A stretch of DNA of 64,000 bases from Desulfolutivibrio sulfoxidireducens (GTDB lineage: Bacteria; Desulfobacterota; Desulfovibrionia; Desulfovibrionales; Desulfovibrionaceae): assembly GCF_013376475.1 (NCBI RefSeq), contig NZ_CP045508.1, positions 1,733,501 through 1,797,500 on the forward strand, given 5' to 3'. Below the pieces are notes generated by a model that was given only the letters and a program-made list of their open reading frames with translations, was not told the DNA's origin and did no database searches. A program made the position numbers and the translations under genes. The number at the start of each line of letters is the position of its first letter. The stretch's first letter is position 1. Below are positions 2,200 to 17,373 of this stretch, in pieces.

Positions 2200-3060
2200 G
2201 TGCACCCGCGTGAATACGAACGGCACGTGCGCTGCGAGGCCTCGGCCCGCCGGCTGTTGCTGTCTTACGTCTGGAAGGGGGGAAAGCGGTTTTGCCCCCG
2301 CTGCCGGGGCGGCAAGGTCTATGAACTCTCGGACGACAGGCTTCGGTGCGCGGCCTGCCGCTATACCTTCCACGACTTCTCCGGCCGGTTCCTCAACGTG
2401 GGGGGCCTGAGCCCCCGGGACTGGCTACGCCTTGTGCGGCTCTTCGAACTGGAGCTGACCGTCAGCCGCATGGCCGACCAGTTGGGTCTGGCCTACAACA
2501 CCGTCTACCGGGCGGTGACCGTGATCCGTTTCTCCATCCTGGCCAACGCCCTGGACGCGTCCCAGCTCCTTTTCGGCGAGGTGGGCCGGGAGCTTGGCTA
2601 CGACAACGGCCGCATGGTCATGTCCCGGTCCGGGGAGCCGGGCGGACATGTCCCGGTCTTCGGCATCATCGAAAAGCCGGGTTGGACCTTTCTCGACCTG
2701 GTGCCGGACATGCGCGTGGAACACGTGGTGCATTTCAACATGAATTTTTCCCTCAAGGTCACCCGCCTGGGCAAGATCGTCTACACCGACCGTTTCCAGC
2801 ATTACGACGCGCTTATGTTCTGCGGCGGCGACGACGCCTGGCGCTACGCCGATATCCTGGACCGCACGCCCTATCTGGACACCCTGCCGGACGGCTTCTG
2901 GAATTTCGCCCGGACCCGGCTTCGCCGCTTCAGCGGGGTCAGCGCCCGCCGCTTTCCGCTCTATCTCAAGGAGCTGGAATTTCGCTACAACCACAGAAAT
3001 GAGTCTATCCTGCCGATTCTTCTTACCTTCCTCTGCTCTCTTGTGCCAAAATACGAGTAA
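2200..3060 (+). CDS. IS1595-like (ISXO2 domain) transposase, probably domesticated or inactive
   Basis: 286-residue protein. An N-terminal zinc ribbon (CPRC at residues 31-34 and CAAC at 51-54) is followed by a helix-turn-helix-like stretch and a region resembling the ISXO2/IS1595 DDE domain: VFGIIEKPG, KIVYTDRFQHYD with the second acidic residue, then GFWNFARTRLRRFSGVSARRF and the closing LKELEFRYNHR typical of the family. The first catalytic Asp, normally in a DES-like motif before the GKR stretch, is not evident; the equivalent segment reads FGEVGRELGYDN. I see no terminal inverted repeats around the gene, so it is probably an immobile relic or a domesticated DNA-binding protein. Start is GTG at 2200 with CCGGAGGG upstream. 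Confidence 0.7.
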   Translation: MHPREYERHVRCEASARRLLLSYVWKGGKRFCPRCRGGKVYELSDDRLRCAACRYTFHDFSGRFLNVGGLSPRDWLRLVRLFELELTVSRMADQLGLAYNTVYRAVTVIRFSILANALDASQLLFGEVGRELGYDNGRMVMSRSGEPGGHVPVFGIIEKPGWTFLDLVPDMRVEHVVHFNMNFSLKVTRLGKIVYTDRFQHYDALMFCGGDDAWRYADILDRTPYLDTLPDGFWNFARTRLRRFSGVSARRFPLYLKELEFRYNHRNESILPILLTFLCSLVPKYE

Positions 3061-3424: not shown

Positions 3425-6400
3425 ATGAAGCTCAAACGCAGGGATTTTCTCAAGCTGACCGGCGGGGCCATGGCCGTCACCGCGTTCGGCGGCCTGGGAT
3501 TCGATCTCACCCCGGTCCATGCCAAGGCCGCGGCGGCCAAGCTGGCCGGAACGGCGCAGACCACCTCGGTGTGCTGCTACTGTTCCGTTGGATGCGGGCT
3601 CATCGTGAGCACGGCCGACAGCGGCAAGGGCCGCGCGGTCAATGTCGAGGGCGACCCCGACCATCCCATCAGCGAAGGCGCCCTGTGTCCCAAGGGCGCG
3701 GCCATCTCCCAACTCGGGGAAAACGACCGGCGCATCCAGAAGGTGCTCTACCGGGCTCCGTATTCCGACAAGTGGGAGGAGAAAAGCTGGGACTTCGCCC
3801 TGGAGCGCATCGCCAAGCTGACCAAGGAGACCCGCGACGCCTCGTTTGAGGCGAAAGACGCCAAAGGGCAGGTGGTCAACCGGGTGAACGGCATTGCCTC
3901 GGTGGGTTCGGCGGCCATGGACAACGAGGAGTGCTGGGTCTATCAGGCCATGCTCCGGGCCATGGGACTTACCTACATCGAGCATCAGGCCCGTATCTGA
4001 CACAGCGCCACTGTGGCGGCTCTGGCAGAGTCGTTCGGACGCGGCGCGATGACCAATCACTGGATCGACATCGTCAACAGTGATTGCATTTTCATAATCG
4101 GCAGCAATCCCGCCGAAAACCATCCCGTATCGTTCAAGTGGGTCATGCGGGCCAAGGACAGAGGCGCCAAGGTCATTCACGTTGACCCGCGCTTCACCCG
4201 CACCTCCCAGCACGCGGACATCTTCGCCCGCCTGCGCTCGGGCTCGGACATCGCGTTTTTTGGTGGCCTGATCAATTACATCTTGAAGAACAATCTCATC
4301 TTCAAGGACTATGTCGTCAACTACACCAACGCGGCCTTCATCCTTGGGGACAAATTCGAGTTCAAGGATGGACTTTTCTCGGGATTCAACGAGGAAAAGC
4401 GGTCCTACGACAAGTCCTCGTGGTCCTTTGTGAAGGACGACAAGGGCGTTCCCAAGAAGGATCCGACCCTGGCCAATCCCCGGTGCGTCTATCAGCTCAT
4501 GAAAAAGCACTATGAGCGCTATGACCTGAAAACCGTGTCCAAGATCAGCGGCACCCCGGAAAAGGATCTGGTCGAGGTCTACCAGGCCTACGCGGCCACG
4601 GGCAAACCCGAAAAGTCCGGCACCATGCTCTACGCCATGGGCCAGACCCAGCACACCGTGGGCGTGCAGAACATCCGGGCCATGACCCTCATCCAACTGC
4701 TTCTGGGCAACATCGGCGTGGCCGGCGGCGGCATCAACGCCCTGCGTGGCGAGGCCAACGTCCAGGGGTCCACGGACCAGGGGCTTTTGTACCATATCCT
4801 GCCCGGCTACCTGCCCACGCCTTCCGCGGCCATGCCCACGCTTGCGGACTATAACGCCAAGAACACGCCCAAATCCGCCGATCCGCGAAGCGCCAACTGG
4901 TGGGGCAACCGGCCCAAGTACGTGGCCAGCTTCCTCAAGTCCATGTACCCCGCCCAGGAGTTGGAGACGGCCTATTCCTGGCTGCCCAAGCTCGAGCCCG
5001 GCAAGGACTATTCCTGGCTGTCGCTTTTCGACGCCATGCTGGGCGGGGCCTTCAAGGGCTTTTTCGCCTGGGGCCAGAACCCGGCGGCCAGCACGGCCAA
5101 CTCCAACAAGACCCGCGAGGCCATGAGCAAGCTGGACTGGATGGTCACGGTGAACATCTTCGACACCGAGACCGGATCGTTCTGGCGCGGCCCGGGCATG
5201 GACCCGAAAAAGATCAAGACCGAGGTGTTCTTTCTGCCCTGCTGCGTGTCCATCGAGAAGGAAGGCTCCATCTCCAACTCCGGACGCTGGATGCAGTGGC
5301 GCTACGCCGGACCCAAGCCCATGGGCGAGTCCAAGCCCGACGGGGACATCATCTACGAGCTCTTCGAGAAGATCCGTGAGCTCTATAAAAAAGAGGGCGG
5401 GGCCTTCCCCGACCCCATCCTGAACCTCAACTGGGACATCGCCACCAACCACGTCTATGATCCGCACAAGGTGGCCAAGCGCATCAACGGGTATTTTATC
5501 AAGGAAAAGACCATAAAGATCGGCGACGCGGACAAGACCTTCAAGCCCGGCGACCAGGTGCCGGCCTTCGCCATGCTTCAGGACGACGGCTCCACCTGCT
5601 CGGGCTGCTGGATCTACTGCGCCTCCTACACCGACAAGAACATGTCCGCCCGCCGCGACAAGACCCAGACCGAGATGCAGGCCAAGATCGGCCTGTTCCC
5701 GGCCTGGTCCTGGGCCTGGCCGGTCAACCGGCGGATCATCTACAACCGGGCCTCCGTGGACCTAAACGGCAAGCCGTATCAGCCCAACAAGGCGGTCATC
5801 GCCTGGGTCGACGGCAAGTGGGTGGGCGATGTGCCCGACGGTCCCTGGCCGCCCATGGCCGACGTGGAAAAGGGCCGTTATCCCTTCATCATGACCACCG
5901 AGGGCTTTGGCCAGCTTTTCGGCCCGGGCCGCAACGACGGTCCGTTCCCGGAATACTACGAGCCCCTGGAATGCCCGGTCAGCGCCCATCCCTTCTCCAA
6001 ACGGCTGCACAACCCGACCGCCCTGATATTCAAGGGCGAGGCGGAAAAACGGGCCGTGTGCGATCCGCGTTATCCGTTCATCTGCTCCACCTACCGGGTC
6101 ACGGAGCACTGGCAGACCGGGATTATGACCCGCTGGGTGCCCTGGCTGCTTGAGGCCGAGCCCCAGATGTTCGTGGAGATGAGTCCTGAACTGGCCACCA
6201 TGCGCGGCATCAAAAACGGCGAGAAGGTCATTGTCGAGAACATGCGCGGACAGCTTTGGGCCAAGGCCATCATCACCGAGCGCATCAAGCCCTTTACGGT
6301 CATGGGCGAGACCGTCCATCAGGTGGGCATTCCCTGGCACTTCGGTTGGGTCTTCCCCAAGGACGGCGGTGATTCGGCCAACCTGCTCACCCCCTCCGTG

Positions 6401-6463
6401 GGCGATCCCAATACGGGCATCCCGGAAACCAAGGCCTTCATGGTCAACGTGCGGAAAGCCTAA
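3425..6463 (+). CDS. fdhA: Periplasmic formate dehydrogenase, catalytic alpha subunit (selenoprotein)
   Basis: Oxidises formate to CO2 (or the reverse) at a tungsten or molybdenum bis-MGD site and passes electrons through FdhB to periplasmic cytochromes. 1012 residues including selenocysteine encoded by the in-frame TGA at 3998-4000 (residue 192), in the diagnostic context EHQARI-Sec-HSATV. A twin-arginine signal (RRDFLK) opens the protein. The N-terminal [4Fe-4S] ligands are C50, C53, C57 and C88. Strong similarity to Desulfovibrio FdhA continues to the C-terminal molybdopterin-binding domain (LLTPSVGDPNTGIPETKAF). Start ATG 3425 follows GGAGGA; an out-of-frame ATG lies at 3421. It is followed after 14 bases by fdhB. 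Many annotation programs would split this gene at the TGA. Confidence 0.97.
3998..4040 (+). promoter_or_regulatory. UGA selenocysteine codon and probable bacterial SECIS region
   Basis: The TGA at 3998-4000 is followed in frame by codons conserved in selenocysteine formate dehydrogenases. Bacterial SECIS hairpins lie directly after the UGA inside the coding sequence. A candidate stem here is GGCTCT with AGAGTC around a GGC loop (about 4018-4032), and other pairings are possible. The exact fold is not resolved by eye; the function follows from the protein context. Confidence 0.7.
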
Positions 6464-6477
6464 GGAGGCCATCACCC

Positions 6478-7203
6478 ATGAATGGAAAAAGCTTCTTTGT
6501 CGACCTGTCCAAGTGCACGGCCTGCCGGGGCTGTCAGGTGGCCTGCAAGCAATGGAAAAACAAACCCGCCGAAAAGACGGAAAACACCGGCTCGCACCAG
6601 AATCCGCCGGATCTGTCCTGGATGACGCTGAAACTGGTGCGGTTCACGGAAAAAACCATTGACGGCAAGTTCAACTGGCTGTTTTTCCCGGACCAGTGCC
6701 GTCACTGTGTGGACGCCCCATGCAAGATGGTGGCCGATTCCGAGGTGGAGGGGGCCATCATCCAGGATGAGGCCACGGGAGCGGTGATTTTCACCGAGAA
6801 GACCAAGGACATCAGCATCGACAACGTGCGCCCGGCCTGTCCCTACGACATCCCCCGGGTCAATCCCGAGACCAAGGTCATGTACAAGTGCGACATGTGC
6901 ATCGACCGGGTCCAGGCGGGCTTGCTTCCGGCCTGCGTGCAGACCTGTCCCACGGGCACCATGAACTTCGGTGACCGCGCGGAGATGCTGGAAATGGCGA
7001 AAAAGCGGCTGGAGGAAGTCAAAAAGAGGTATCCCCAGGCCGTTTTGGTTGACCCCGATGACGTGCGGGTGATTTTCCTGTGCCTGTTCCCCGGGGACAA
7101 CTACTACAAACACGTCACGGCCGAGGCGGGTGAGCCCCGGACCATGACCCGCAAGGCGCTCCTGGCCGGCATAGCCAGGCCCTTTGCCCGCATCCTGTCG
7201 TAA
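6478..7203 (+). CDS. fdhB: Formate dehydrogenase iron-sulfur beta subunit
   Basis: 241-residue ferredoxin-like subunit that takes electrons from FdhA and hands them to soluble periplasmic cytochrome c3. Four cysteine clusters for [4Fe-4S] centres are visible: CTACRGCQVAC near the N-terminus, CRHCVDAPC, CPYD with its partners, and CDMCIDRVQAGLLPACVQTCP. It has no signal peptide and no membrane anchor, so it should travel to the periplasm with Tat-targeted FdhA, as known for the Desulfovibrio FdhAB dimers. AAGGAGG at 6462-6468 overlaps the fdhA stop. No cytochrome subunit follows; the operon ends at a strong terminator. Confidence 0.96.
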   Translation: MNGKSFFVDLSKCTACRGCQVACKQWKNKPAEKTENTGSHQNPPDLSWMTLKLVRFTEKTIDGKFNWLFFPDQCRHCVDAPCKMVADSEVEGAIIQDEATGAVIFTEKTKDISIDNVRPACPYDIPRVNPETKVMYKCDMCIDRVQAGLLPACVQTCPTGTMNFGDRAEMLEMAKKRLEEVKKRYPQAVLVDPDDVRVIFLCLFPGDNYYKHVTAEAGEPRTMTRKALLAGIARPFARILS

Positions 7204-8173: not shown

Positions 8174-9481
8174 GTGAGCCCCAGTTTCCGCCGTTCGGCA
8201 ATTGCGCTTGTCGTCGTCCTGGCCTTGACCCTCGTCTCCTGTGAGCAGGACGCCGCGCGAAACGCCGCCGACGCCGTCACGCCCGGAGTCACCGACACGA
8301 CCATCCTGGTGGGATCCTCCCTGCCGCTCTCCGGCCACGCCAGCTACCTGGGCCGCCAGACCCTCTACGGGGCCATGAGCTACATCAACCACGTCAACGC
8401 CCACGGCGGGGTGCATGGCCGTACCATCGAGGTCAAGGCCCTGGACGACCAGTACGACCCGGCCAAGTGCGTGACCAACACCCAAAAACTCATCATCGAG
8501 GACAACGTCTTCGCCCTGTTCTGCTACGTGGGCACCCCGACCACGCTCAAAATCGTCCCCCTGGTCGACGAGGCCAATGTCCCCCTGGTCGGCATTTTCA
8601 CCGGGGCCAACGCCCTGCGCGAGCCCTTCAACAGGTACATCATCAACGTGCGCGCCTCCTACTACCAGGAAACCCAGGCCGCCGTGCGCCATCTCGTGGA
8701 AGACCTGGGCATCAAACGCATCGCCATTTTTTACCAGTACGACACCTACGGATTCGACGGCCTCAAGGGCACCGAACTGGCGCTGAAGGATTACGGTCTG
8801 GCCCCCGTGGCCCGGGGCACCTACGCCCGGGGCACCATGGAGGTGGAGGAGGGCCTCAGCCGCATCCTGGAGGCCAATCCCGAGGCCGTGGTCATGATCG
8901 GGACCTACGGTCCCTGCGCCCGGTTCATCCAACTGGCTGAAAAGCAGGGGGCCAAGCCGGTGTTCTACGCCGTCTCCTTCGTGGGGGCCGACGAGATCGC
9001 CCGCATCCTGGGGCCGCGGACCACAAGCGAGGTGATCATGTCCCAGGTGGTGCCGCCACCGGATCTGCCGGAAACCCGGACCCTTTTGTGGGGCGTGGTG
9101 GAATACTCCGACATGCTCAAGCGCTATTATCCCGAGGAACTGCCCAACACCGTGGGCCTTGAGGCCTACATCAACGCCAAGGTCCTGGTGGAGGGCCTGC
9201 GTCGGGCCGGCAGGAATCTGACCAGGGATCGGTTCATCGACGCCATTGAATCCATAAGCGACTATTCCGTGGGCATCGCCAACACCATCTCGTTCGGTCC
9301 GGACAGGCATCAAGGGCTCGAACGCGTGTATTTCAACAAACTGGAGAGGGGGAAATTCGCCCTGATCACCGACTGGAAAAACATCCGCATACACAGCCGC
9401 GAGAAGAAAGCGCCGGAGTCCGACGCCGCTTCGGAGAAACCCGGTGGTGAAAATGAAGCCGTTTCGACGCCTAAGCCTTAA
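8174..9481 (+). CDS. Branched-chain amino-acid-type (LivJ/Leu-binding) periplasmic binding lipoprotein
   Basis: 435 residues with a lipoprotein signal (hydrophobic stretch then LVSC, Cys at about 23) and a type I periplasmic-binding fold: ILVGSSLPLSGHASYLG, then GGVHGRTIEVKALDDQYDP and IKRIAIFYQYDTYGFDG, all typical of Leu/Ile/Val-type binding proteins. No permease or ATPase genes accompany it. Instead its 3' end overlaps a sensor kinase by 38 bases, so it more likely presents a small ligand to that kinase than serves transport. The C-terminal tail is charged and low in complexity. Start is GTG 8174 after AAGGAGCGCGAG. The ligand is unknown. Confidence 0.85.
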   Translation: MSPSFRRSAIALVVVLALTLVSCEQDAARNAADAVTPGVTDTTILVGSSLPLSGHASYLGRQTLYGAMSYINHVNAHGGVHGRTIEVKALDDQYDPAKCVTNTQKLIIEDNVFALFCYVGTPTTLKIVPLVDEANVPLVGIFTGANALREPFNRYIINVRASYYQETQAAVRHLVEDLGIKRIAIFYQYDTYGFDGLKGTELALKDYGLAPVARGTYARGTMEVEEGLSRILEANPEAVVMIGTYGPCARFIQLAEKQGAKPVFYAVSFVGADEIARILGPRTTSEVIMSQVVPPPDLPETRTLLWGVVEYSDMLKRYYPEELPNTVGLEAYINAKVLVEGLRRAGRNLTRDRFIDAIESISDYSVGIANTISFGPDRHQGLERVYFNKLERGKFALITDWKNIRIHSREKKAPESDAASEKPGGENEAVSTPKP

Positions 9482-11456
9482 AATCAAGATCTTTCTGAGC
9501 ACGCTGGGGGTGGTCCTTTTAATCAGCGCGACCATCGCCATGCTGGCCAGATGGATTCTGGTCTCCAGCCTCACCCGCGAGCTGGAACTGCGTGGCGTGG
9601 CCATCGCCCAGTCCATCGCCGAGGGCGGCAGCGGCTACGTCCTGGACCAGGATACCCCCAACCTGGTCAGCCTTGTCTTTGACGCGGCCCAACTTGGGGA
9701 ACGCAAGATTCTCATTTCCTATATCTACATCGTCGAGCTGGACGGCAACGTCCTGGCCCATACGTTCATCAAGCCCTTCCCCCGGGATCTGCTGTTCCTC
9801 AATGTCCTGCCTCCGGACAAGGACCAGTCCGTGACGCTTATCCAGGTGGACGGGGAACAGGCCTACGACATCGCCGTGCCCATCAAGGAGGGCATCTACA
9901 CCCTGGGCTCCGTGCATGTGGGCTTGAACAAGAACCACATCGACAATCTCGTGGGCAAGCTGCGGTTCACCTTCCTGGGGTTCATCTCGGCCATTGTGGT
10001 CATCATCTTCCTCATTGCCCTGCGGCTGTCCAATTACATCACCCAGCCCGTGACCCGGCTGACCCGCATCTCCGACGAGATAAGCCGGGGCAACCTCGAT
10101 TTTCCCATGACCCTGCTCGATGCCCAGGGCCGCGAACCCAAGGACTGTCCAGCCTACAGCAATACCGATCTGCCGTGCTGGCATTTCGACCAGAACCTCA
10201 TGGACGAGTCCGAGACCACGGCCGAAAACGTGCGCACCTGCAAGGAATGCGTTTTCTATAAAAAACGCACGGGCGACGAGGTGGACCAGCTGGCCGACTC
10301 CTTCAGCAACATGATCTGGTCCATCAAGCTCTACCGGCGACGGCTTCGGGAATCCGAGGAAAAATACCGGTCGCTTTTCGACAGCAACCCCGATCCGGTC
10401 TTCGTGGTGGACCTGGACAGAAAACATATCCTGGACGCCAATCCCAGGGCCGAGGAGGTCTACGGCTTTGCCAAACCGGACCTCATCGGCCGGCCCATCT
10501 CCGACCTGGAGCCCTCGGACGCCATGACCGGCGTCTCCAGGTTCCTGTCCACCCCCCAGGCCGGAGAATGCATCCTTTTCACCAAGGTGCGGCACATCAA
10601 AAAGGCCGGAACCCCTTTTTTCGTGAACGTGCACGCCTGCCGCACCCACTACCGGGGCAAGGAGGCGGTCATCTTTTCCACCACCGACATCACCGAGATG
10701 GTGGAAAAAGACGCCCAACTCATCCAGGCCAGCAAGATGAAGACTCTGGGCGAGATGTCCGCGGGCATCGCCCATGAGCTGAACCAGCCCTTAAACGCCA
10801 TCAAGATGGGCAGCGATTTTTTAAGCCTCATGGTCGGGCAGAACCGGGATATCCCCAAAGAGCATTTAAGCCGCGTGGTGGGGGAGATCAGCGCCCAGGT
10901 GGACCGGGCCGCGACCATCATCAGCCACTTGCGCGAATTCGGCCGCAAGTCCGACCTCAAAAAGGAGAAGGTGGACATAAATGTCCCCATCCGGGGCGTG
11001 TTCACCATCATCGGCCAGCAGTTGGCCCTGCAAAACATCGACGTGACCCTGGATCTGTGCGACAATCCGCCCCAGGTCCATGCCCATTCCAACCGGCTCG
11101 AACAGGTGTTCTTCAATCTGGTGACCAACGCCCGCGATGCCATCAACATGCGCTTTGACGGCCATCGCGATGAGGGGCTCAAGGATCATGGACCACGGGA
11201 GATTTCCATCCGGTCCTGGCTCGAAAATGGGCGGGTGGCGGTGACCGTCTCGGACACCGGCTGCGGCATCTCCCCGAAAAATCTGCAAAAGATTTTTGAA
11301 CCGTTTTTCACCACCAAGACGACGGGGCACGGCATGGGCCTGGGGCTGTCCATCTCCTACGGCATCGTCAAGGATTATGGCGGCGATATCGAGGTCGGCA
11401 GCGAACCAGGGGAAGGCACCACGTTCAAATTGTCGTTCCCCGTTTTGGCCAACTGA
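9444..11456 (+). CDS. Membrane sensor histidine kinase (sensor domain, HAMP, Cys-rich insert, PAS, HisKA, HATPase)
   Basis: 670 residues. TM helix ~12-33, a ~150-residue periplasmic sensor region (Cache-like), TM ~175-197, HAMP, then an unusual four-cysteine insert (CPAY...CW...CKEC, residues ~232-272) that recalls the cysteine-rich two-CW-type segments of other deltaproteobacterial sensors. A PAS domain ([16 protein letters not shown]) follows, then the phosphoacceptor [10 protein letters not shown]-box [10 protein letters not shown] and G-boxes DTGCGIS and GHGMGLGLS. The start is uncertain among GTG 9444, GTG 9447 and ATG 9453; GGAG at 9432 favours the first two. Overlap with the binding-protein gene implies coupled expression. 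Confidence 0.92.
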
Positions 11457-11472
11457 AAGAGAGGACACCAGG

Positions 11473-12231
11473 ATGCGACGGATTTTGGTCATCGACGACG
11501 AGAAACCGACCCTGTCCATGTTTTCACTGTACCTCGAGGCCTACGGATACCAGCCGCTTACCGCCGACACCGGCGAACGGGGCCTGGAGATATTCCGGGA
11601 GCACCGGCCCTCCATCGTGCTGACGGACATCAAGATGCCGGGCATGGATGGACTGACGGTCCTTAAGGAGATCAAGGAGGAAAGTCCGGACACCGAGGTC
11701 ATCGTCATCACCGGCCACGGCGATATCGATCTGGCGCTCAAGGCCCTCAATCTTAACGCCACGGACTTCATCGACAAGCCCATCCGCCAGGAGGCCCTGG
11801 AGTCGGCCCTGCGACGGGCCGAGGAGCGTCTTTTGGCCCTGCGCAACAAGGAAGAGGAGATATCCGTGCGCTGCCTGGACAATGTGGCGGCCATCGATAT
11901 CCGGGGCAACGTCACCTCCCGTTCGGAACCCTATCTGATCAAGGCCTACAAGGAGGCCTCGGGACCAGGGGAGACACGTCCGGTGGTCCTGCATTTCGAG
12001 CAAAGCGCGTCGATAAACGGCGCGGGCATCGCGGTTTTGACCCAGCTTCTCCTTGAAAGCGACAAACGCGGCCAGCCCGTGGCCATCTCCGGGCCATCGG
12101 AAAATTTCACCAAGGTCTTTGAGATTGTGGGCATCACCAAATTCGTGGACATCTTCGCGACCGAGGCCGAGGCCGTGGCCAGTCTGCGGGGGCGGGCCGC
12201 CGTGGCGGCGCGAAAGGAGGTCTCCTCATGA
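11473..12231 (+). CDS. Response regulator with receiver and STAS output domains
   Basis: 252 residues. The receiver domain (1-~120) keeps the acidic pair in VIDDE, the phosphoacceptor Asp in LTDIKMPGMDG, Thr in VITGHG and Lys in IDKPI. The C-terminal part (~140-240) matches a STAS anti-sigma-antagonist fold (VVLHFEQSASINGAGIAVLTQLL). At the position of the serine phosphorylated in SpoIIAA-type proteins there is Gly (motif NGAG), so control is probably by receiver phosphorylation and not by a serine kinase. There is no DNA-binding domain; output should be protein-protein interaction. ATG 11473 follows AGGACACCAGG. It is presumably the partner of the upstream kinase. Confidence 0.9.
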   Translation: MRRILVIDDEKPTLSMFSLYLEAYGYQPLTADTGERGLEIFREHRPSIVLTDIKMPGMDGLTVLKEIKEESPDTEVIVITGHGDIDLALKALNLNATDFIDKPIRQEALESALRRAEERLLALRNKEEEISVRCLDNVAAIDIRGNVTSRSEPYLIKAYKEASGPGETRPVVLHFEQSASINGAGIAVLTQLLLESDKRGQPVAISGPSENFTKVFEIVGITKFVDIFATEAEAVASLRGRAAVAARKEVSS

Positions 12232-12791
12232 TCCAGGCCCTGTTGCGAGGGACGCTCGTGGCGGTCTGCCTGTTCATGGCCGAGGGGGGGGCGTCCTCTT
12301 CCCCGGCCGGCGAACCGCCCCGGGAAGGGGACGTTTTGCCGGACTTCACCCTGGTTTCCCCGGAGTCGCCCGAAGACCGCACCGCCCTGGGCCTGTCCGA
12401 TGCCGCGACGTTCAAGCTCGGCGACGTGGACGCGTCGTGTCTTCTCTTCGAGGTGATCGGGGTGTACTGCCCCGAGTGTCACAAGCAGGCCCCGCTTTTC
12501 GGGAAACTGCACGCCCGGTTGGCCAAGGACCAAAATCTCTCCGGCCGGGTGAAAATGCTGGCCATGGCCGCCGGGGCGACCACCAAGGAACTGGAATATC
12601 TCCTGAAACGGGGCGAGTATCCTTTTTGTGTGGTCAACGATCCGGAATATGTCGCGCATAAGGCCCTGGGTGAACCAAAAACACCGTTCACCATGATCGT
12701 GGATCGCCAAGGGCGGGTCCTTTTTGTCCATCTGGGCGTGATCACGGACATGGGGGGCTTTTTCCGCACAATAGAGAACCTGTGCCGATGA
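12228..12791 (+). CDS. Secreted thioredoxin-fold (redoxin/TlpA-like) protein with CPEC motif
   Basis: 187 residues with an N-terminal signal-like hydrophobic segment, then REGDVLPDFTLVSP typical of redoxin/AhpC-TSA proteins and an active-site-like VYCPECHKQAP. CPEC replaces the common CxPC, which should alter the redox potential. PFTMIVDRQGRVLFVHLG supplies the cis-Pro region. It overlaps the regulator gene by ATGA (12228-12231) and the next gene by the same device, so all three are translationally coupled. A periplasmic thiol-disulfide or peroxide-sensing function is inferred; the substrate is unknown. Confidence 0.82.
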   Translation: MIQALLRGTLVAVCLFMAEGGASSSPAGEPPREGDVLPDFTLVSPESPEDRTALGLSDAATFKLGDVDASCLLFEVIGVYCPECHKQAPLFGKLHARLAKDQNLSGRVKMLAMAAGATTKELEYLLKRGEYPFCVVNDPEYVAHKALGEPKTPFTMIVDRQGRVLFVHLGVITDMGGFFRTIENLCR

Positions 12792-14551
12792 ACGACGCCG
12801 CAGCCGCTTCAGGCGGGCATCTGTTTTCCCTGGCCTCGGGTGAGGACGACCCGGGCAGACTCGCCCGCCGCCTTTTTCAGTTGCAGACCCTCTATGACGC
12901 CTCTTTTGAATTAAGCCGCCTGGTCACCTCACAGGCCATCGCGGATTCGTTTCTCCTGACGGCCATGGGGGCCATGGGAGCCACACAAGGCTTTGTCCTG
13001 ATTCTGGGGCCGGGCAGCGATTCGCGCATCCTGCCCTTCAGGGGGTTTTCCGACTCCGACATGGCCGCGCTGCATGACGATCCGCAGCGGATTCGCCAGG
13101 CCTACTTTTCCTCGGTGGTCGTCGATCATCGTGTTCCCCTGTCCCGTCCGCATATCCTCGTCGTGGGCAAGGGCCTTGGACCATCGCCTTTTCCCGCCGG
13201 CACCGAGATCCTGGTCAAATGGGTCATGGATGAGACATGCGGCTTCGTGGGCCTGGGCAACAGGCTTACGGGCGCGTATTCCGAGGATGATCGGACGTTT
13301 CTGGTGTCACTGACGGCAATGTTTTTGCAGTTTTTGGGGCGGACGTTTTTCATCGAGGAGATTCGCCGCCTCAATGACGAACTCAGTGCCGGGAACGCCG
13401 GGCTGCAGGCTTCCCTGGCCGAATCCAGGCGTCTTGGGGCCGATCTCGATCGCCAAGTCTTTCATCTTAAGTCCGTCAACGACACGGTCAACGAGTTAAG
13501 CGGCATGCTGCATTCGCGGGAACTGATGCAGCGGTTCCTGCTTCTGTCCATGGGGGCGGTGAGCGCCGCCAGGGGCTATCTGGTCCTTTTTTCGCAGACT
13601 GACGGCCAGCGCCGCATCGTGGCCTGCCGCGGGATGGAGGAAGACGACCTGGGGGCCGCGGACAGCCCCCAGGTCGGTCGCCTGCTGACCAGGCTGCTTT
13701 TTTCCCCCAGCCAGGGCGCGAGCGACGGTCTTCGCCGGGGCATGGCCGAGGATCCGGCCGTGTTGTCCGAGGCGGGACTTCCCCCGGACATGCCCGGGGT
13801 CTGGTTTGTCATCGATGACCTCAGCTTCGGATTCATGGGGCTTGGCGAGCGGATTGCCTCCGCCGCCTTCGATTCCCGGGAACGCGAGTATCTTTTGGCC
13901 GCGACCGGGGCCTTTACGGTCTTTTTGCGAAACGCCGGGCTTTATGAGGAAAAAAACCGCCTGATCGAGAATCTGGCCGCGCAGAACCTCACATTGCAAG
14001 AGACCCTGGACAGCCTGACCAGGTCCCGGCGGGAGATCGTCGGGCTCAACGCAGCCAAGCAACGCATCAAGGACATTGTCCTTCGGGAGATGGACCGGGT
14101 GGGGCGGGTCTCGGTCATGGACTTTGTGCTCATCCTGTGCGTGTCCCTGGTCATCGGCGTTCTGTTCAACTCCGCCAACCCGTCCGGGGTGTCCTTGATT
14201 CCGGCAAGCTGGAGCCGTCCGGCCATCGGGGCTGTGGATCCGGCCCTGGCCCGGTCCCGTGTGGATCAGGGGGCGGCTGTTCTCGTGGACGCCAGGCCCA
14301 GGGAACTGTATGAACAAAAGCATGTCCCCGGAGCCGTCAACCTGCCTCTGGCCCTTTTTGATTTCGTGTACGGCATGGAGATGGCGGACATCGATCCGGC
14401 AAAGGAGATCGTGGTCTACGGCGGCAACGTCAGCCGCCGCTATGATGACGATGTGGCCGCGCTTCTGATCGAACGGGGGCACAAAAATGTGAAGCTTTTG
14501 TCCGGCGGGCTCGACGCCTGGGAAAAACGCGGATTTTCGGTAACGCCATGA
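12788..14551 (+). CDS. GAF-like x2, transmembrane and C-terminal rhodanese domain protein (no catalytic Cys)
   Basis: 587 residues. Two ~170-residue repeats (each with an AMGA or SMGA...G-Y/F-VL segment and an FGFMGLGERI or CGFVGLGNRL-like segment) look like GAF-type sensor domains joined by coiled coils. One TM helix (VMDFVLILCVSLVIGVLF, ~440-457) then leads to a rhodanese domain (VLVDARPRELYEQKHVPGAVNLPL; LLSGGLDAWEKRGF). The active-site loop reads VVYGGNVSRRYDDD, with Gly where catalytic rhodaneses have Cys, so sulfur transfer by the usual route is unlikely. Predicted topology puts the GAF part inside and the rhodanese domain in the periplasm. Start ATG 12788 overlaps the previous stop (ATGA); GTG 12782 is an alternative. 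Confidence 0.82.
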   Translation: MNDAAAASGGHLFSLASGEDDPGRLARRLFQLQTLYDASFELSRLVTSQAIADSFLLTAMGAMGATQGFVLILGPGSDSRILPFRGFSDSDMAALHDDPQRIRQAYFSSVVVDHRVPLSRPHILVVGKGLGPSPFPAGTEILVKWVMDETCGFVGLGNRLTGAYSEDDRTFLVSLTAMFLQFLGRTFFIEEIRRLNDELSAGNAGLQASLAESRRLGADLDRQVFHLKSVNDTVNELSGMLHSRELMQRFLLLSMGAVSAARGYLVLFSQTDGQRRIVACRGMEEDDLGAADSPQVGRLLTRLLFSPSQGASDGLRRGMAEDPAVLSEAGLPPDMPGVWFVIDDLSFGFMGLGERIASAAFDSREREYLLAATGAFTVFLRNAGLYEEKNRLIENLAAQNLTLQETLDSLTRSRREIVGLNAAKQRIKDIVLREMDRVGRVSVMDFVLILCVSLVIGVLFNSANPSGVSLIPASWSRPAIGAVDPALARSRVDQGAAVLVDARPRELYEQKHVPGAVNLPLALFDFVYGMEMADIDPAKEIVVYGGNVSRRYDDDVAALLIERGHKNVKLLSGGLDAWEKRGFSVTP

Positions 14552-15042
14552 GCATCTGTTCCCCTGCGACGAGAACGCGGTGCAACGTCTGGCTGGCCCT
14601 GGGGTTTCGGCTCTACCTCGGCGGGCTGTTCATCTATGCCAGCATCTACAAGATCAATTATCCGGCGGAATTCGCTGAAACCATCGCCTCGTACCAGCTC
14701 GTGCCGTATTATCTGGTCAATGCCATGGCCGTGGTCCTGCCGTGGATGGAGCTGATCTGCGGCACCCTGCTTGTGGCGGGAATCCGCCCCCGGGCCGCAA
14801 CGGCCGTGCTGGGGGGCCTGCTGGTCCTGTTCACCCTGGCCATCGTCTGGGTGCTCATCCATGGCGTGCCCATCGGGTGCGGCTGTTTTCATACCATCGA
14901 AGACCCCATTTCCTGGAGAACCCTGGCCAGGGATCTGATCTGGCTGGGCATGGCCGGGCACGTGTTCGCGTATGACCGGTATTTCCATCTCGATGAGCGG
15001 TTCATGATGAAACTTTCGGAGGCCACATGCGATCCGTCCTGA
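14548..15042 (+). CDS. MauE/DoxX-like integral membrane protein
   Basis: 164 residues with four predicted membrane helices and the MauE/DoxX pattern: GGLFIYASIYKINYPAEFAE, VVLPWMELICGTLLVAGI, and GCGCFHTIED before the last helix. Family members supply reducing equivalents or support disulfide chemistry for periplasmic partners (MauE in methylamine dehydrogenase maturation). Overlap by ATGA with the rhodanese gene and co-operonic location with a thioredoxin-fold protein support a thiol-redox function in the envelope. Confidence 0.8.
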   Translation: MSICSPATRTRCNVWLALGFRLYLGGLFIYASIYKINYPAEFAETIASYQLVPYYLVNAMAVVLPWMELICGTLLVAGIRPRAATAVLGGLLVLFTLAIVWVLIHGVPIGCGCFHTIEDPISWRTLARDLIWLGMAGHVFAYDRYFHLDERFMMKLSEATCDPS

Positions 15043-15353
15043 TGCTGCTGGTCCTTTTGGCGGCCGTCGCGGCGGGATCGTGCGATCGTTCCTCGCCATT
15101 GGCCGGAAAATACGAGGCCATCCACGGCGAGGGGGCACAGGCCAGGACCATTGTCCTGGAGTTGGGTGAGGCGGGGCAGGGGGCCTGGAACGCTGATTTT
15201 GAATCCATTTCCTTCAAATGGGACGCCAGGGGCACGCGGGTGCTGCTCCATACCCGGGCCGGCGGCGTGATCCAGGCCGAGGTCCGGGGTGAGGAACTGG
15301 TGGTGGATCTGCCCGGGGTAGGGGAGGTGCTCTTTCGACGGACCGTCCGATGA
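15027..15353 (+). CDS. Small lipoprotein, last gene of the sensory/redox operon
   Basis: 108 residues with a lipoprotein-like signal ending AAGSC (Cys 19) and a compact beta-rich remainder (SPLAGKYEAIHGEGAQARTI, then LVVDLPGVGEVLFRRTVR). No family is recognised. It overlaps the MauE-like gene by 16 bases, with GGAGG-like bases inside that gene serving as ribosome-binding site. No terminator was found directly after it. Confidence 0.65.
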   Translation: MRSVLMLLVLLAAVAAGSCDRSSPLAGKYEAIHGEGAQARTIVLELGEAGQGAWNADFESISFKWDARGTRVLLHTRAGGVIQAEVRGEELVVDLPGVGEVLFRRTVR

Positions 15354-15621: not shown

Positions 15622-16559
15622 ATGGACAAGAGAACCATGGTCCCTGGCGAGTGCGCCGGAACGTATGACGCGGATTGGCGTAAAACCTTCGATATGGTTT
15701 TCCTGGTTGGATGGGTTTTCGGCATCGTGGCCCTGACCCTGGTCACGAGTCGTCTCCAGCCCGACTTCTATACGGATTACCGGTTCATGGCCTTCGCCGC
15801 GCTCAAGTTCGCGTCATGGTCCTGATGTCCATCGCCGGAGGTCTGGTCTGCCGCCGCTACTGCCAGGTGGACGAAAAGGGATATATCGTCACCAGCAAGG
15901 ATTCGTGGTTCAAGGTCAATTACACCCGAAAGCTGCAGCACTTCGCCGCCTATCTCGTGCCGCTTCTGAATATCAGCGAACCGGGAGAACATCCGCATGG
16001 CGTGTTGCCGCACGTCTGGGAGGCCATGCTCGTGCTGCTCGCCTTTCTTTTGATGATAAAGCCGATACGGGAGCGAAGCGGGCTGTTCATGCTACAGTTC
16101 AATTCCCTGGACCGGCCGGAAGACAGGCCGTACACCTTGAAATGGATCGTGCTGGGCAACATCCTGCCAGGCCTCGCGCTCAGCCTCTTCTTCAGGGAAC
16201 TCTTCGAGACGCACGGGTTCGCGGACTTGGCCCTGATCATCATCTTCATCATCGGGATCGGGGACGGACTGGCCGAGCCCGTCGGAATCTATTGGGGAAG
16301 GCATAAGTACCATGTCCCGTCATGGTTTTCCTCCAGAATCTACGTGCGCTCCGTGGAGGGCAGCCTGTGCGTTCTGCTGACGAGTGTCCTGTTTGTCGGC
16401 ATTTTTTATGCGGATTTTCATACCTTGAGGCAATTCTGGACGGCTGTGGCGGTCGTGCCCCTGCTTATGACCGTGGTGGAGGCCACCGCACCCCATTCCA
16501 TGGATACGCCGTCCATGATGATCATCGGGTTCTCGGCCTTGTATGCGATCATCTTGTAG
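15622..16559 (+). pseudogene. Dolichol/phytol kinase-like (CTP-dependent lipid kinase family) membrane protein, frameshifted
   Basis: Two overlapping frames together encode one ~310-residue protein. Frame one runs from ATG 15622 (after GAGGAAG) to about 15813, reading ...RFMAFAALKFA. The rest continues in another frame from about 15814 as VMVLMSIAGGLV to the stop at 16559. Restoring one base near 15812-15816 joins them. The C-terminal half has the family hallmark GIGDGLAEPVGIYWGRHKY, VRSVEGSLCVLL and VVEATAPHSMDTPSMMIIG, as in dolichol kinase/phytol kinase/CDP-archaeol-type enzymes, plus several TM helices. Either a real inactivating deletion or a sequencing error is possible; the downstream frame shows no further decay. 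Confidence 0.7.
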
Positions 16560-16824: not shown

Positions 16825-17373
16825 TTAGGGGGCCCCGTTCTCCAGGAACCGTTCGAGGATCGTCCGCAATTCCGCCTCGTCGTGGGCGCCCAGGATACGA
16901 TCGACGATGCGCCCCGCCTTGAGAAAAACAAGCATGGGGATGGGGTTGAGCCCGTAGTGGGCCACGGCGGCCTCGCCGGCCCAGTAGACCGGAAACTCCA
17001 CCCCGAGTTTGTTCACCAGCGGTTGCATGGCCTGGACCCCGCCGTAATCCACGCTCAGCCCGTACAGCACCAGGCCTTTTTCCCGAAGTTCCCGGTCAAG
17101 CTTGGCCAAATGGGGCAATTCGGTCTTGCATGGCCCGCACCAGGAGGCCATGGCCACCACCACGCAGTGGTCGGTCCGGGCCAGCAGGGCGTCGAAATCC
17201 GCAAGCGAGACCGGGGCCACCGTGACCGGCGCGGCCAATGCCGCCGTCGCGGCCAGGCGATACAGGAATACGGCCAGGACGGCCCCGAGCCACGCCCCGC
17301 GACATCCGTGGCGGATGCCGCGCCAGGGCGGTCTTTGGGGAGGGATGAATGCGGGATGGGGCCTGCCGGACAT
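16825..17373 (-). CDS. TlpA/ResA-type membrane-anchored or secreted thioredoxin
   Basis: 182 residues with an N-terminal hydrophobic segment (GAWLGAVLAVFLYRLAATAALA) that can be a signal peptide or anchor, then a thioredoxin fold with the classical active site MASWCGPCKTELPHL and a cis-Pro at NPIPMLVFL. Such proteins keep periplasmic thiols reduced, for example in cytochrome c maturation. The first in-frame ATG at 17373 has no clear ribosome-binding site, so an internal start is possible. It is convergent with the frameshifted kinase gene. Confidence 0.85.
   Translation of the reverse strand: MSGRPHPAFIPPQRPPWRGIRHGCRGAWLGAVLAVFLYRLAATAALAAPVTVAPVSLADFDALLARTDHCVVVAMASWCGPCKTELPHLAKLDRELREKGLVLYGLSVDYGGVQAMQPLVNKLGVEFPVYWAGEAAVAHYGLNPIPMLVFLKAGRIVDRILGAHDEAELRTILERFLENGAP

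Follow-up and report, generated by a model that had tools for sequence, protein, structure and literature searches.

A conserved seven-gene sensor and envelope-redox operon linked to a selenocysteine formate dehydrogenase in Desulfolutivibrio sulfoxidireducens and its relatives

We analyzed a 64,000-nt stretch of the genome of Desulfolutivibrio sulfoxidireducens (assembly GCF_013376475.1, NZ_CP045508.1 positions 1,733,501-1,797,500, forward strand), referred to here as the window, with a focus on an operon of seven co-directional open reading frames, g1 to g7, that span 8174-15353 on the + strand. The first three encode a LivJ-type (Peripla_BP_6) lipoprotein with its lipobox cysteine at Cys23 (g1, 8174..9481), a membrane histidine kinase (g2, 9444..11456) and a receiver-STAS regulator (g3, 11473..12231). 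They are followed by genes for a periplasmic ResA/TlpA-like redoxin (g4, 12228..12791), a protein in which GAF-type domains are joined through a coiled coil and a transmembrane (TM) helix to a degenerate rhodanese, or pseudorhodanese (g5, 12788..14551), a MauE/DoxX membrane protein (g6, 14548..15042) and a small lipoprotein (g7, 15027..15353). The coordinates reproduce exactly the junctions given in the original prediction for this locus: a 38-bp overlap, a 16-bp gap, three ATGA overlaps and a 16-bp overlap. Co-transcription of g1-g7 is likely because of these overlaps and because the gene order recurs elsewhere.

We used g5 as a query against 99 relatives and compared the loci around its matches. 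Full-length homologues were found in ~36 genomes, and the g1-g7 order recurs in ~30 Desulfovibrionales genomes, often at 30-60% identity. The same order is seen outside the Desulfovibrionales in Desulfoferrobacter, Desulfamplus, Desulfarculales, Syntrophobacteraceae and further Desulfobacterota, although g4 and g7 were not found at the Desulfarculales locus and the Syntrophobacteraceae contig ends within g5. Tight spacing also recurs among relatives, with 4-bp overlaps being frequent. The conserved order rules out chance clustering of seven genes: g1-g7 is a real conserved unit, and the sensory and envelope-redox operon that had been proposed from this one sequence is kept in relatives. Literature searches returned no counterpart, in line with the earlier statement that no system of this composition has been described, and a search for MauE together with rhodanese, or for MauE with Desulfovibrio, gave nothing relevant. 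The genes g1-g3 occur without g4-g7 at five loci (L031, L040, L042, L043, L046) and g3-g7 occur without g1-g2 at five others (L127, L128, L132, L133, L145), some of the contigs in both comparisons being short. Because each set occurs without the rest, the operon consists of two evolutionary modules, A (g1-g3) and B (g4-g7), for which g3 is the hinge.

Module A has the hallmarks of a two-component system. The g1 product matches PF13458 (Peripla_BP_6, 1.7e-58) and, by profile, the structure 4kv7 (9.6e-75), the nearest solved structure, which is annotated merely as a probable leucine/isoleucine/valine (LIV)-binding protein. No LIV/ABC transporter gene is among the recurrent neighbors at ~48 loci, which agrees with the prediction of a LivJ-type lipoprotein that lacks a transporter. 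Two cysteines of g1, C99 and C248, are invariant in 41/41 orthologues, with C99 absent from 4kv7, and might form a redox-sensitive pair or be a client of the redoxin. The kinase g2 contains sCache_3_2, HAMP (below the cut-off), PAS, HisKA and HATPase_c domains by Pfam; its kinase histidine, H444, is kept in all 43 orthologues. Four further cysteines in the HAMP-PAS interval (C235, C245, C266 and C269, spaced C-x9-C-x20-C-x2-C) are kept in 39 of the 43 and could provide an iron-sulfur or zinc redox site. The receiver aspartate D52 of g3 is present in 48/48 orthologues, so that the HisKA histidine and HATPase of g2 and the receiver aspartate of g3 are all in place. Pfam and NCBIfam searches of g3 identified only Response_reg and STAS domains and no helix-turn-helix or other DNA-binding domain, as had been predicted. 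Its STAS motif is S-[IV]-N-G-A-G (SINGAG in the window), with Ile/Val and Asn at the positions of SpoIIAA DSSG in nearly all of the 48; the site that we take, from family knowledge, to correspond to the phosphorylated serine of SpoIIAA was placed by motif rather than by structure. A canonical anti-anti-sigma action of this STAS domain is weakened by the missing phosphorylatable serine of DSSG. The receiver-controlled anti-sigma system in the literature, RsfSR, uses a receiver-PP2C phosphatase and not a receiver-STAS protein.

Module B combines two invariant thiol pairs with a rhodanese that has lost its own cysteine. The g4 product is a Pfam Redoxin whose best match among solved structures is ResA (profile match 4e-12). 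Both the CxxC, which lies in the sequence GVYCPEC, and the cis-proline (Pro153) are conserved in 40/40 orthologues, as expected of a thioredoxin-fold disulfide reductase. The C-terminus of g5 has the rhodanese fold (PF00581, 9e-16), and the position of the catalytic cysteine is occupied by glycine (Gly545) in 43/43 orthologues, within a loop of the form G-[RG]-x-x-S-R-x-Y-D. The loss of this cysteine, already noted from the single sequence, therefore extends to every orthologue and rules out a sulfurtransferase function; a sulfur-transfer reading of the locus is weakened in turn. The thiol pairs, by contrast, are kept without exception in g4 and g6. The assignment of the N-terminal part as GAF-GAF stands at the level of fold, whereas Pfam GAF models gave no match to it. 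An AlphaFold2 model built from 39 orthologues (mean pLDDT, the predicted local distance difference test score, 83) has its best Foldseek matches among phytochrome GAF-PHY and phosphodiesterase tandem GAF structures (E 1e-10 to 1e-7), and residues 251-387 match the DevS GAF by profile (E 6e-4). No conserved NKFDE-like motif indicative of cyclic nucleotide binding was seen in the consensus of these GAFs. We infer that the GAFs are cytosolic and the rhodanese periplasmic because positive charges precede the TM helix. The g6 product is a MauE protein (PF07291, 6e-27, 94.9 bits against a cut-off of 27, model positions 3-123 of 128) that is also matched by DoxX, and its CGC motif (C111, C113) is invariant in 40/40. 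Pfam and NCBIfam gave no match for g7, which is predicted to fold as an eight-stranded barrel (pLDDT 90); its similarity to lipocalin-like lipoproteins and to the N-domain of NlpE is weak (best E 4e-3).

Directly upstream of the operon, and outside the seven genes, lie fdhA (3425..6463, + strand), which encodes a selenocysteine formate dehydrogenase alpha subunit with an in-frame TGA at 3998-4000 as residue 192, and fdhB (6478..7203, + strand), which encodes the iron-sulfur subunit; this connection is absent from the original prediction. The window FdhA aligns end to end with the Desulfovibrio gigas and Desulfovibrio vulgaris formate dehydrogenase (FDH) structures. Of 36 relatives with the operon, 24 have an FdhA of this class no more than 5 kb away from it, against an expectation of ~1% per genome under random placement; a binomial estimate on this basis takes no account of kinship and is not to be read at face value. 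Four arrangements occur: in 12 genomes FdhA is downstream and convergent, in eight it is upstream and divergent, in three it is upstream on the same strand and in one it is downstream on the same strand. These arrangements fall in separate clades of a g3-g6 tree, indicating that the linkage outlived several rearrangements. Unbiased clustering of flanking genes recovered FdhAB, an IS1595-like gene next to FdhAB, and genes for FDH cofactors (MoeA, FdhE and MobA) as the recurrent neighbors. Beyond the Desulfovibrionales, FdhAB is encoded just upstream of g1 in Desulfamplus (L038), and at two loci from a single genus of another family (L205:3291-11182 and L206:5876-13871) fdhA-fdhB-fdhE, a TM-pseudorhodanese-MauE-redoxin cassette and a Tat-signal beta-carbonic anhydrase gene follow one another on one strand. 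Module A alone is near FdhAB in L043. The FdhAB linkage is the strongest contextual clue to the role of the operon.

The linked enzyme has a known redox switch. In D. vulgaris FdhAB, the C845-C872 disulfide form is inactive and O2-stable and the reduced form is active (PMC11134731, PMC11323313, PMC13397495); the physiological reductant of this disulfide is not named in the review and papers searched. In the window, alignment to 6sdr places the C845/C872 codons of fdhA at 5972 and 6059. Each of the 24 linked genomes encodes at least one linked FdhA that has the two cysteines (in G045, one of its two linked copies), as does the FdhA of L038, L205 and L206, and the pair is missing from 25 of 40 further FdhA copies sampled from operon genomes.

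Other genes flank this region. The IS1595-like protein is encoded in the window at 2200-3060, upstream of fdhA; it contains a zinc ribbon and a DDE domain, has relatives at 14 other operon/FDH loci and resembles a domesticated transposase associated with this region. Downstream of the operon, a gene at 15711-16559 has no Pfam or NCBIfam match and is not kept beside the operon in relatives. A second thioredoxin-like gene (WCGPC; 16825-17373, minus strand) lies 1.5 kb downstream, and relatives of it are near the operon at five loci (L111, L112, L126, L132, L133).

A phylum-wide profile search for g5 in 395 Desulfobacterota genomes revealed C-terminal relatives in ~30 further genomes. Their loci show that a TM-pseudorhodanese, MauE and a g7-like lipoprotein, often together with a g4-like redoxin, make up a separate cassette that is spread over the Desulfobacterota. 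Several members carry a cyclic-nucleotide-binding domain instead of GAF-GAF. Rhodanese and MauE are fused in a single chain of 480-500 residues in ~10 genomes, which argues for direct contact between the pseudorhodanese and MauE. At L193-L204, single proteins of ~480-500 aa run from a cyclic-nucleotide-binding domain through the TM helix and pseudorhodanese to MauE and are followed by a g7-like lipoprotein; L181 and L200 adjoin NfeD genes, accompanied in L181 by SPFH/band 7, and a gene for a 400-aa protein without a family match. At two loci (L198, L210), stand-alone STAS genes adjoin the gene of a cyclase with a GAF domain that matches the g5 profile, with no receiver or rhodanese. One of these clusters (L198:7248-10079) has the gene order STAS, HATPase, STAS, GAF-adenylate/guanylate cyclase, its GAF matching that of g5 and its STAS that of g3. 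The host genome also has a paralogous TM-rhodanese that keeps the catalytic cysteine, encoded beside a second MauE (G000:C1 964606-965550, L211).

We propose that the operon is a sensor-controlled envelope thiol-disulfide relay mainly dedicated to the adjacent FdhAB and that it may set the FdhAB switch in the cell. The g1 lipoprotein would bind a small ligand and engage the Cache domain of g2, and the kinase, with its conserved cytosolic four-cysteine cluster, would phosphorylate D52 of g3. The STAS domain of g3 would then act from protein to protein, most likely on the GAFs of g5, which in turn would signal across the membrane to the dead rhodanese, a possible docking or regulatory domain on MauE. 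MauE (g6) would exchange electrons across the membrane with the CxxC of g4, and g4 would reduce (or, in air, oxidize) the FdhAB surface disulfide and so turn the enzyme on or off; depending on its direction, this electron flow would activate the enzyme after anoxia or protect it in air. The g7 lipoprotein is perhaps an accessory of the MauE unit. The chain as a whole is tentative, and we would put it at somewhat less than even chances; the half with the better support is that module B is dedicated to FdhAB in Desulfovibrionales. The broader proposition is more doubtful, namely that this is a post-translational, transcription-free control of FdhAB (from receiver-STAS through TM-pseudorhodanese to MauE relay) within a wider Desulfobacterota family of pseudorhodanese-MauE modules gated by GAF or cyclic-nucleotide-binding domains.

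Several observations weigh against a relay dedicated to FdhAB. The operon lacks a nearby FdhA in seven genomes (at least five loci of the 12/36 operon genomes without a linked FdhA stop at a contig edge), most operon loci outside Desulfovibrionales have no nearby FDH and the cassettes of the cyclic-nucleotide type have none. The gap between fdhE and the cassette in L205/L206 is ~500 bp, and linked neighbors may share regulation or history only. Furthermore, of 23 sampled genomes without the operon, 20 have a switch-type FdhA, which makes the operon an addition to FdhAB rather than a general requirement. Because the cysteine pair is a marker of the FdhA class and is found in these operon-free genomes as well, we do not count it as independent support.

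A rather unlikely alternative is that g1 and g2 sense formate or another C1 or small-acid substrate in the manner of TorT/TorS, and that g3 partner-switches elsewhere, with an anti-sigma kinase, to set expression, module B being a co-regulated thiol system for envelope biogenesis such as cytochrome c or FDH assembly. A periplasmic binding protein-kinase pair beside a periplasmic molybdopterin guanine dinucleotide enzyme has a precedent in TorT-TorS-TorCAD, and at several places in the host genome (1894122, 2691710, 4027196) an RsbW-like HATPase gene adjoins a STAS gene. The resemblance of g4 to ResA and the occurrence of module A alone near FdhAB in L043 are also consistent with this arrangement. 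However, neither an anti-sigma kinase nor a sigma factor is recurrent beside the operon, the phosphorylatable STAS serine is replaced, and g3 is retained alongside g4-g7 at loci without g1-g2, which ties the STAS domain to module B. We consider it unlikely that the operon combines a sensor with general envelope disulfide housekeeping, as a DsbD/CcdA-like reductant or DsbB-like oxidant for which FDH would be a client among many others or a mere neighbor: module B is found without FDH in many Desulfobacterota, in several beside NfeD/stomatin genes, but the repeated and rearranged FDH linkage and the minimal cassette linked to fdhABE speak for a closer tie. The idea first put forward for this locus, that the rhodanese, redoxin and MauE sense a sulfur species or redox state in the periplasm and pass it inward through g5 and STAS, draws on the periplasmic rhodanese fold, the sulfate-reducing hosts, the kinship of MauE and DoxX and a TM topology that would permit inward signaling, but it is quite improbable, as the sulfur-carrying cysteine is absent from all 43 orthologues yet kept in the paralogous pair of the host genome, the linkage is to formate dehydrogenase and not to sulfur genes, and inside-to-outside control of module B would fit the swap of the g5 cytosolic domain (GAF-GAF or cyclic-nucleotide-binding) at least as well.

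The FdhAB enzymes of sulfate reducers are among the most active CO2-reducing enzymes known, and their activity and oxygen tolerance hinge on one surface disulfide, for whose reductant the operon is a concrete and genetically testable candidate. If the proposed relay to FdhAB exists, the signal would reach the enzyme by an uncommon path, a response regulator whose STAS output acts on a membrane protein. The recurring module, in which a cytosolic sensor is connected by one TM helix to a dead rhodanese that is paired or fused with MauE, suggests how electron flow to periplasmic thiols might be gated.

Parts of the operon resemble known systems. As in MauD/MauE of methylamine utilization, a MauE-family membrane protein is encoded with a thioredoxin-like periplasmic protein, whereas the operon adds a TM-pseudorhodanese, a lipoprotein and a two-component system and is linked to formate dehydrogenase instead, with no methylamine dehydrogenase gene among its recurrent neighbors. 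The profile match, CxxC and cis-proline of g4 recall ResA/TlpA/CcmG, which work with CcdA/DsbD, but g4 has GVYCPxC instead of WCxxC and the cluster has MauE and no CcdA/DsbD partner. TorT-TorS and LuxP-LuxQ likewise place a binding-protein gene beside that of a membrane-bound kinase that has a periplasmic domain, without a transporter; here the binding protein is a LivJ/HAAT-type lipoprotein, there is a single kinase, which has a Cache domain, and the output is receiver-STAS rather than a DNA-binding regulator. Partner-switching by SpoIIAA, RsbV and RsfB shares with g3 a STAS domain with response-regulator input, whereas the STAS domain of g3 is fused to its receiver, the canonical phospho-serine is absent and the cluster has no anti-sigma kinase. 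Finally, the linked FdhA has both the selenocysteine (Sec192) and the two switch cysteines of the D. vulgaris FdhAB system, to which the operon, not described in the literature searched, would add the missing reductant or oxidant.

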